Source: Acidobacteriota bacterium
GTDB lineage: Bacteria; Acidobacteriota; Terriglobia; UBA7540
NCBI GenBank assembly: GCA_902812415.1
Contig: CADDZJ010000027.1
Location: 1 to 41,102 of the forward strand
DNA length: 41,102 nt
Reading direction: 5' to 3'
The notes under the pieces were generated by a model. The model was not told the DNA's origin. It did no database searches and saw only the letters and a program-made list of their open reading frames with translations. Numbering within the stretch: the stretch's first letter is position 1; every line of letters starts with the position of its first letter. This document shows, piece after piece, positions 38,487-41,102 of the stretch. Position numbers and translations under genes: made by a program.

Positions 38487-38560
38487 TGACAGCCTTTGCT
38501 GTCGCGACGAACTGTGTTCGCCGATTCGTTCTTTTCGGCGATCGCAGATCGCCGCTACAA
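38487..38560. repeat. Family B (REP/BIME-like) hairpin pair
   Basis: The left hairpin CGACGAAC-TGT-GTTCGCCG has one mismatch. The right hairpin CGGCGATC-GCA-GATCGCCG (38536-38554) is followed by CTAC. A spacer ATTCGTTCTTTT lies between them. The right hairpin is the same class as those near 40830 and 40962. Confidence 0.8.
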
Positions 38561-39301: not shown

Positions 39302-40081
39302 ATGAAAAGGACATTTCAGATTGCAGGGGTGATGCTGGCTCTCTGGGCGTTGGCCGGGATGGCCCTGGCTACCGAGGCTACCCAGCCTGCGGCGACGCCT
39401 CCGCCACCTATTCCTGCCGGCACAACCCTTCGGGTGCAACTGGATACCACTCTGACCGATAAAACCAACAAGTCGGGCGATAAGTTCACGGGCGAAGTCA
39501 GCGAACCGGTATTCGTTAACGGAAAAGAGGTTGTCCCCAAGTACAGCACGGTGAACGGCCATATTGCCTTCCTGAAGCCTTCAGGCCGCATCGCCGGCAA
39601 GGCTCAGATGCGCCTCGTGATTGACAATATCTCGACTCCGGACGGCGTTGTTTACCCGCTTTCCGGCACGCTGGAGGAGGCCCAGGGCGGCGTCTGCGCG
39701 CATACGGCGAATACCGGCAAGACGAAGGCCGATGAGGAAGGAACCATCACCGGCTGCGGCAAGAGCAAAAAGAAGGCTGCCGAGGCCGCCGCGATTGTGG
39801 GAGGGATGGGCGCAGGCGTCGGCGCAAGCATCGGCATGGGCAAGGAGATTGAGTGTGACTGGTATGGTTACTGCCCTCCGGGCGGATCAGGAATGGGCAC
39901 CGACATCATGTATGGCGCCGGGATTGGAGCAGGAACCGCGCTGATCTACAGCCTGCTGAAGCATGAAAAGCACATTGTGCTGGTTCAGGGCAGCACCCTG
40001 ACGTTCATTGTGAACCGCACGACGATGGCGGATAAGTCAACCGTTGCCGCGCCGGGTGAGGGGGCGACCGGTTCTCAGTGA
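39302..40081 (+). CDS. Exported glycine-zipper protein with VirB10/TrbI-like beta domain (paralogue 1)
   Basis: 259 residues with a signal peptide (cleavage likely after ALA, residue 23). A domain at about 38-130 begins IPAGTTLRVQLDTTLTDKTN and contains GDKFTGEVSEPVFVNGKEVV and SGRIAGKAQMRL, a pattern I associate with VirB10/TrbI-like beta domains common in Acidobacteriota envelope proteins. A lysine/alanine linker leads to a glycine zipper (about 165-185, VGGMGAGVGASIGMG) and a second (GAGIGAGTALIYSLL), which may insert in a membrane. The ATG has AAGGAGG. The next gene begins 8 bases after the stop and is a paralogue, so the two are one operon. Function unknown. Confidence 0.83.
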   Translation: MKRTFQIAGVMLALWALAGMALATEATQPAATPPPPIPAGTTLRVQLDTTLTDKTNKSGDKFTGEVSEPVFVNGKEVVPKYSTVNGHIAFLKPSGRIAGKAQMRLVIDNISTPDGVVYPLSGTLEEAQGGVCAHTANTGKTKADEEGTITGCGKSKKKAAEAAAIVGGMGAGVGASIGMGKEIECDWYGYCPPGGSGMGTDIMYGAGIGAGTALIYSLLKHEKHIVLVQGSTLTFIVNRTTMADKSTVAAPGEGATGSQ

Positions 40082-40089
40082 GGCCTGGC

Positions 40090-40782
40090 ATGAAAAGCGT
40101 CAAAACCGCTCTTTTGATGATCTTTGCCCTCGTCGGGGGATGCGCTCTTCTGGCGGGGGCTGAAAGCTCTCAATTTACGCTTCCTGCCGGGACGCGGATC
40201 GACGCCCAGCTTACTTCGACGCTCAGTTCCGCGGCCAACCAGCAAGGCGATCCGTTTACGGCGAAAATTGAAGACCCGATTTTTGTGAAGGGGATTGAAG
40301 CCGTTCCTGCGGGCAGCACGCTGCGCGGCCACGTGGCTTTTGTGAAGCCTCCGGGCCGGGCGAAGGGTAAAGCGGAGATGCGCCTGGTGGCGGATTATAT
40401 TGTCACCCGTGACGGAAAGCAGTACTCATTGAACGCTCAATTGACCAATAATGATTCCGCGAATGGAGTGAAAGTGAAAGGCGACGAGGGGACGCTTCAA
40501 GGGCCGGGGAAGAGTAAAAAGCAAAGCGTCGAAGAGAGCGGCATCGGCGCCGCCGCCGGCGCCGGAGTGGGCGCAATCGCCGATGGCGGTACCGGCGCGC
40601 TTTACGGAGCGGGCATCGGCGCGCTGGCCGGAGCTCTCCATGCCCTCGCCAAGCACCATAAGGATATCGTCCTTCACCCAGGTACAGAATTGACCTTCGT
40701 ATTGACCTCCCCTGCGACGGAAACCAAGGCCACCCAATCATCCGCCGTCTCAACCCCGTTTGTTTGCACAAGCTGCCGTTAA
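40090..40782 (+). CDS. Exported glycine-zipper protein with VirB10/TrbI-like beta domain (paralogue 2)
   Basis: A 230-residue paralogue of the preceding protein: LPAGTRIDAQLTSTLSSAANQ, GDPFTAKIEDPIFVKGIEAV and PGRAKGKAEMRL align one to one. A glycine zipper follows (GIGAAAGAGVGAIADGGTGALYGAGIGALAGAL). The N-terminus contains LVGGC at about residues 14-18, a possible lipobox that its neighbour lacks, so this copy may be a lipoprotein. ATG 40090 is chosen because GAGG lies six bases upstream. A GTG at 40078 overlaps the previous stop (GTGA) and adds four residues. The extreme C-terminus ends CTSCR, which is unusual. Function unknown. Confidence 0.83.
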   Translation: MKSVKTALLMIFALVGGCALLAGAESSQFTLPAGTRIDAQLTSTLSSAANQQGDPFTAKIEDPIFVKGIEAVPAGSTLRGHVAFVKPPGRAKGKAEMRLVADYIVTRDGKQYSLNAQLTNNDSANGVKVKGDEGTLQGPGKSKKQSVEESGIGAAAGAGVGAIADGGTGALYGAGIGALAGALHALAKHHKDIVLHPGTELTFVLTSPATETKATQSSAVSTPFVCTSCR

Positions 40783-40800
40783 GCCTGCCTCGACAGCGCC

Positions 40801-40976
40801 GCGACAGCGTGGTTGGGGCGATCTGTAGCGGCGATCTGCGATCGCCGACACCCGCGATCTGCGATCGCCGGAAAGAACGAATCGGCGAACATAGTTCGCC
40901 GCTACAGCAACGAATCGGCGAACATAGTTCGCCGCGACAGCGTGGTTGTAGTGATCTGTAGCGGCGATCTGCGATC
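40801..40976. repeat. Array of family B hairpins with a 133-bp direct repeat
   Basis: The array holds GTAG plus CGGCGATC-TGC-GATCGCCG (40825-40847), two CGGCGAAC-ATA-GTTCGCCG hairpins (40883-40901 and 40916-40934, the first followed by CTAC), and a final GTAG plus CGGCGATC-TGC-GATC that stops at 40976. The segment 40801-40843 recurs at 40934-40976 with few differences (period 133). The last hairpin is cut four bases before its end. Confidence 0.9.
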
Positions 40977-41007
40977 AGGCTTGTCCAAATTAGGTTTTCA
41001 AAAATGG

Positions 41008-41074
41008 GGCGGAATCCCCTATAAGTTGAGTTTGGATTTTCCCATGTTCAATCTCAACGATAGGAGATTCCGCC
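41008..41074 (+). promoter_or_regulatory. Long hairpin covering the transposase ribosome-binding site
   Basis: The left arm (41008-41030, GGCGGAATC...GTTGAG) pairs with the right arm (41053-41074, CTCAAC...GATTCCGCC) over about 20 of 22 positions, leaving a 22-base loop. The right arm contains AGGAG (41062-41066), the ribosome-binding site of the GTG at 41075. Transcripts entering from outside would fold and block translation. Confidence 0.65.
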
Positions 41075-41102
41075 GTGAACCGAGTATGCAGCATCTTCTC
41101 GC
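41075..41102 (+). CDS. Start of an IS4-family transposase with DUF4372-type N-terminus (partial)
   Basis: The GTG at 41075, eight bases after AGGAG, opens a frame reading MNRVCSIFS before the window ends. This N-terminus resembles IS4-group transposases that begin with a DUF4372 domain (MN..., then a hydrophobic-SIFSQ-type stretch). With nine codons the assignment rests on the short motif and on the surrounding insertion-junction evidence. Confidence 0.5.

Follow-up and report, generated by a model that had tools for sequence, protein, structure and literature searches.

An IS4-family insertion sequence residing at the apex of REP palindromes in Acidobacteriota

Results

The window ends in an insertion sequence that interrupts a REP hairpin

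The window, a stretch of 41,102 nucleotides that constitutes the whole of contig C27 in a 261-contig acidobacterial genome, carries a REP array near its right-hand end and, as its last 127 bp, the left end of an insertion sequence (IS) (Table 1). Two adjacent, similar-looking genes with glycine-rich stretches (39302-40782) lie upstream of the array. In agreement with a preliminary description of this DNA, the first copy of the array repeat runs through CGGCGATC-TGC-GATCGCCG, and the second switches after GATC (40976) to AGGCTTGTCC. What was termed there a 133-bp direct repeat is a repeat of 47 bp, 94% identical between its copies (40797-40843 and 40930-40976), with 133 bp being the spacing.

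Table 1. Features of the REP array, the IS and the adjoining RAYT gene (window positions unless a contig is named).
Feature	Position	Strand	Basis or remark
Further REP pair in the window, uninterrupted	38506..38558	-	Pattern matches
First REP-array unit, intact control copy of the target	40797..40929	+	Direct repeats D1/D3; alignment over ~118 bp to the empty site obtained by joining the flanks
Intact REP: GTAG foot and hairpin CGGCGATC-TGC-GATCGCCG	40825..40847	+	Sequence, pattern count, fold
Interrupted REP: GTAG CGGCG ATCTGCGAT, remaining 3' arm severed by the IS	40958..40975	+	Sequence, direct repeats
Left target-duplication copy ATCTGCGAT, hairpin apex	40967..40975	+	The same 9 bp adjoin the C120 right end
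Left end of the IS4-family element (5'-CAGGCTTGTCCAAATTAG...)	40976..41102	+	Contig end truncates the element
Putative transposase gene start (GTG; V/M-N-R-V-C-S-I-F-S...)	41075..41102	+	Matches the N terminus of the 391-aa G024 transposase
RAYT gene (REP-associated tyrosine transposase)	G000:C120:11183-11623 (L008:2184-2624)	-	NF047646, 99 bits, cut-off 80

The window hairpin is not a chance structure, because GGCGATCTGCGATCGCC matches three times in the window vs an expected 0.01, and GTAGCGSCGN{9,11}CGSCG matches 143 + 157 times across the genome vs 3 + 3 for the reversed control pattern. As single-stranded DNA, the intact REP has a folding energy of -9.2 kcal/mol (z -3.6). The apex varies among the REP types of this genome (GATCTGCGATC, GGTGTCCTCACC, GAACTATGTTC, and others), of which REPs make up ~0.15%.

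The left end is identical over 124/124 bases to a second copy found beside unrelated DNA on contig C87, and the right ends described below close both sites exactly, which upholds 40977 as an IS border. It is 81-83% identical to complete elements in two related genomes, G024 and G007. Judged by homology with CA...TG-tipped relatives, the IS most likely begins with the C at 40976, the duplication occupying 40967-40975. We adopted CA...TG tips because these relatives have 9-bp duplications at unrelated sites, and because the duplication at an ordinary insertion site in G024 is exact only when read in this way. A start at A40977, with duplications of 11-13 bp, was dropped for the same reason. The transposase of the window element was deduced from the first 28 bases of its gene and from the relatives, its interior being missing from the assembly. 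Indeed, the only matches in a DUF4372 search of the genome were a distant element, on C101 (35% identity), and another on C48, neither of them the window element. An exact-pattern scan of the collected genome contigs, in which this genome is possibly not included, gave no match to the left end.

Both copies in the genome lie in REPs

The element is represented in the genome by exactly two left ends and as many right ends. The second left end, at the start of C87, follows GTAGCGCCGGTGTCCTCACC, which is again a REP, cut four bases into its 3' arm. The right ends lie on C120 and C189 with the flanks GATCTGCGATCGCCGACACCC and GGTGTCCTCACCGGCG, as predicted by the targeting hypothesis. The right end and its target duplication, sought as the preliminary description had proposed, were identified at both sites: the joined flanks reveal the exact duplications ATCTGCGAT (9 bp, window site) and GTGTCCTCAC (10 bp), each a REP hairpin apex. 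When the C27 and C120 flanks are joined, the repeat array is restored and can be aligned with its first unit. The restored REPs fold as single strands with z of -3.6 and -6.6. In this draft genome, the pairings C27-C120 and C87-C189 were deduced from matching duplications and repeat continuity rather than from spanning reads. The junction had originally been placed inside the 3' stem; more precisely, the apex is the centre of the insertion, and on either side of it the cut lies 5 bp inward from the stem foot.

RAYTs are HUH transposases thought to spread REPs. A 146-aa RAYT gene lies on C120, ~110 bp past the IS right end, with REPs on both sides. These ~300 GTAG-tagged hairpins and the adjoining RAYT gene represent a known class, GTAG REPs with RAYTs (PMC3733652). 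Hence the REP array occupied by the IS is the one directly upstream of the RAYT gene, and the IS interrupts a REPtron.

Insertions in related genomes are overwhelmingly in REPs

Genome G024, which includes JASHON010000073.1 (Terriglobia MAG), is a relative of the same family and another genus. We read 32 left ends with distinct flanks and 34 right ends; of the latter, two come from an element that differs slightly (86-87% DNA identity). In total, 30/32 left and 32/34 right ends lie in one REP type, which reads GTAGGGGCGGGTTT[C/G]AAAC(C) from the left ends, the right ends lying in the mirror arm. The 30 left ends conform to GTAGGGGCG[GGTTT(C/G)AAAC(C)] followed by the IS, and the 32 right ends to the IS followed by [GGTTT(C/G)AAACC]CGCCC(C/T)TAC. 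The remaining ends form two pairs. One pair marks a palindrome that resembles a REP, GCAGGGGCG[AGGCGCAGCC]CCGCCCTG, and the other an ordinary site, GGCC[GGTCGAAGCC]CATCG (left end on C54, right end on C4), with the duplication GGTCGAAGCC. Residence in REPs is therefore a property of nearly all copies rather than of all, and these two sites indicate that the IS moves by itself. The only complete copy in G024 (C54:81460-82885) was rejected as a true locus, its flanks belonging to two insertion sites; C54 is a probable misassembly.

In other genomes, G007 has one complete copy (~1.4 kb) in a REP, at GTAGCGGCG[GTCTATGAC]CGCCG. Right ends were found at GGTCTATGACC (G023), GGTCTGCGACC (G003), and GGTCTATGCCC (G005), and G026 contains a small derivative of the element within GTAGCGGCG[AGTTTACCT]CGCC. 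G172 represents a different family of the phylum. A ~330-bp element that bears the same tip on either end occurs there in several places in GTAGGGGCGAACACAAGGTTCGCCCCTAC-type palindromes, some of the flanks being recombined. At four loci (L239, L241, L242, and L245) these are long GTAGGGGCGAAC palindromes. No matching transposase for this short element was detected in G172. Ends in G008, G029, G036, and G061 were assigned to other, related elements with looser targets. The G008 elements (L104, L108, L111, L113, L117, and L121) are ~80-240 bp long; on the left they have the tip AGGCTTGTCC, on the right a distinct one, GGACACC.T. A transposase of the DUF4372 IS4 type was sought in G008 and not found.

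The preliminary description took the landing in a hairpin as a sign of targeting, and proposed to inspect other copies, random sites among which would speak against it. Nearly all of the other copies are in REPs, at the same position, with duplications and in both orientations (2/2 in the window's own genome, 1/1 in G007, and the G024 ends above), which bears out the suggestion. An IS that inserts anywhere and struck a REP here by luck, as might be imagined from the ordinary sites used by close relatives with CACTCTTG tips, would yield such a distribution with a probability of ~2e-6 for this genome alone and ~1e-101 for G024, where REPs make up ~0.03% of the DNA. Luck is thus refuted by the other copies, and we give it virtually no weight.

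REPs are themselves mobile, a RAYT gene adjoins the window copy, and most G024 copies have in common a larger repeat around the REP. One could therefore envisage a single insertion into a REP, after which the IS-bearing REP was copied by the RAYT or by recombination. Several findings make this very unlikely. Relative to the asymmetric surroundings of the REP, 16 left flanks in G024 come from one side, 13 from the other, and one could not be assigned; the insertions are therefore independent and unoriented. Duplications of both 10 and 11 bp occur, identical IS ends sit in two different REP types of the window's own genome, the ordinary-site insertion has its own duplication, and 24 empty REPs of the target type remain in G024.

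When the IS is written CA...TG, the cuts fall after GTAGNNNCG and before CGNNN at nearly all sites, and the length of the duplication (9, 10, or 11 bp) tracks the apex length of the REP type. The hairpin does not, however, fix the stagger strictly, as duplications of 10 bp rather than 11 bp are found at 3/30 REP insertions in G024 and at the REP-like site.

The transposase belongs to the IS4 family

The proteins specified by the complete G024 and G007 genes are 390-391 aa long and have DUF4372 and DDE_Tnp_1 domains. They match the IS4-family model NF033592 with 269 and 260 bits (cut-off 115). The YREK motif Y-(2)-R-(3)-E-(6)-K was recognized by eye in the G024 transposase (IYRQRWQIELFFRALKQ, Y..R...E......K), and duplications of 9, 10, and 11 bp agree with the one helix turn or so that is typical of the family. 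The IS4Sa subgroup has 5'-CA tips, duplications of 8-10 bp, and a size of 1150-1750 bp (PMC2266710). The CA tips and ~1.4-kb length of our element fall inside these ranges, as do its duplications except for the usual G024 value of 11 bp, which is just outside.

The nearest other transposases (57-69% identity) are mostly from Acidobacteriota, with some from Rokubacteria and Syntrophobacterales. Those of their elements that have readable ends, DUF4372 IS4 relatives with CACTCTTGTCC/CACTGCTGTCC or similar tips, share the inner terminal repeat TGTCCAAATTA and make 9-bp duplications. They differ in having CACT as outer tip, not CAGGC / CA[GC]GGC, and in using sites that are neither REPs nor palindromic; no palindrome preference was found at eleven sites of these closer relatives, from Acidobacteriota (combined p 0.64). 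REP specificity in the acidobacterial element therefore looks derived. In a phylogenetic tree, in which several branches are long and the deep joins unsure, the pair of REP-targeting transposases is nested within this group with support of 100/99, and the Sinorhizobium elements are far from them. Because the pair is nested among non-targeting relatives and the Sinorhizobium elements are distant, REP targeting is probably a derived trait that has arisen more than once.

Possible palindrome targeting in the wider clade

We scored 25 non-redundant sites, from clade members that are not REP specialists, for palindromes about the centre of the duplication. Seven gave p < 0.05, and the combined Fisher p is 3e-7 against local flanking DNA. 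Plasmid records were taken by match rank, not at random, and some sites are possibly homologous; we regard palindrome targeting beyond the REP specialists as a less certain lead. In Acinetobacter, ISAbe18-like elements (L267, L275, L277, L279, and L283) occupy the axis of terminator-like hairpins that precede T runs, the clearest being AACAAGG[GCTTCGGCCC]TTGTTTTTTT and AAAGAGA[GGCTTAGCGC]CTCTTTTTTT, with 9-10-bp duplications. We found no account of this preference in the papers that we searched, and nothing relevant on DUF4372 or on IS4 elements in terminators. One rhizobial site, the palindrome CCCAG[GGTCAGGCC]CTGGG, is also among the clearest. Two Rhizobium DUF4372 elements (L288 and L289) split a palindromic repeat, GGATC...palindrome...GGATGACGG, at its axis; L288, from Rhizobium etli, has the right tip CACGGCTG.

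Discussion

Taken together, these findings are best explained, with a probability of roughly 0.93, by an IS4-family element that chooses REP palindromes as targets and makes staggered cuts bracketing the hairpin apex. Ends, duplications, site preference, mixed orientation, and family are read directly from the sequences, and transposition is deduced from them. The element (~1.4 kb), with the tips CAGGCTTGTCC and CA[GC]GGCTGTCC, would encode one transposase, in which an N-terminal DUF4372 domain precedes a DDE catalytic domain. This enzyme would choose GTAG-type REPs and cut on both sides of the apex, 5 bp inside each stem foot (GTAGNNNCG, apex, CGNNN). Repair would then duplicate the apex, i.e. 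9 bp at ATCTGCGAT, 10 bp at GTGTCCTCAC, and 11 bp at GGTTTCAAACC. The chemistry is presumably cut-and-paste, as in the IS4 family, and what the enzyme recognizes may be either the symmetric foot of the stem or the structure of the palindrome. By landing in abundant intergenic sites, the element may benefit from sparing genes.

A narrower form of this explanation is that the palindrome, or an extruded hairpin, is recognized and not the REP sequence, REPs merely being the commonest palindromes. REPs of types that differ in apex sequence all serve as targets, and distant clade members occur at other palindrome axes, i.e. the Acinetobacter terminator-like hairpins, the rhizobial palindromes, and Sinorhizobium REPs. 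On the other hand, the GTAGNGNCG arms common to all the REPs used are compatible with sequence recognition, the eleven sites of closer relatives lack a palindrome preference, and one G024 insertion is outside any hairpin of the REP kind. We consider recognition of structure a reasonable possibility, at somewhat under even odds. More tentatively, and with some doubt, one could extend it to the whole DUF4372-type IS4 clade, which would read palindromes by shape and cut on either side of the apex with a stagger that follows apex length, its lineages having specialized on terminator hairpins, other palindromic repeats, or REPs, the last at least twice (once in Acidobacteriota, once in rhizobia), and the REP specialists sharing the tip CA[GC]GGCTG. 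That this tip goes with REP targeting is only an idea, based on few independent lineages.

With more than 60 junctions, the element provides a clear and heavily replicated REP-palindrome IS in a phylum for which we found no reported case, and its closely related elements without the REP habit are a natural comparison. Target choice is thereby made testable, the question being which residues, in the transposase or in the tips, make a REP specialist out of a promiscuous IS4 element. For the way in which the target is measured, the variable length of the duplication offers a clue. A practical consequence is that assemblies break into contigs at REPs that contain the element.

Known elements resemble ours in different respects. 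ISAbe18, from Acinetobacter plasmids, has the same domain architecture, ~38% identity, 10-bp duplications, and several sites at the axis of terminator-like hairpins; unlike our element, it is not in REPs, and no fixed target sequence was seen. The target consensus of IS231A is GGGN5CCC. This IS4-family element makes 10-12-bp duplications with a known insertion specificity and belongs to another subgroup, with CAT tips (PMC2266710). IS1397 and ISKpn1 (IS3 family), and IS621, ISPpu9, and ISPpu10 (IS110 family), also insert specifically into REPs (PMC1525189), but they have unrelated transposase families and chemistry and use other REP positions.

The closest parallel is ISRm22, an IS4-family element all copies of which in S. 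meliloti lie in REPs at the palindrome axis (Tobes and Pareja, PMC1525189). De Palmenaer and colleagues placed it in IS4Sa and noted the conservation of its sites (PMC2266710). On pSymB of S. meliloti strain 1021 we found exactly one DUF4372-type element of this kind, which is very likely ISRm22 because one ISRm22 is counted there (PMC1525189). Its site is a REP-like palindrome in which 9 bp are duplicated, and its tips, CAGGGCTGTCC, are identical to the right tip in G024. Its close copies are annotated as ISRm16-like. ISRm22 shares with the acidobacterial element an IS4-family transposase and insertion at the REP axis. It differs in its transposase (~32% identical, in a separate and distant clade), phylum, and REP type, and in duplications of 9 bp (6 bp according to the 2006 paper, PMC1525189) vs 9-11 bp. 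The preliminary description named REP-targeting elements such as IS1397 but no IS4/DUF4372-type case from this phylum. This stands, as we found no earlier report of one from Acidobacteriota in the literature; in the IS4 family as a whole, ISRm22 came first (PMC1525189). The window element therefore joins a known kind, the REP-targeting IS4-family elements exemplified by ISRm22, in a new phylum.
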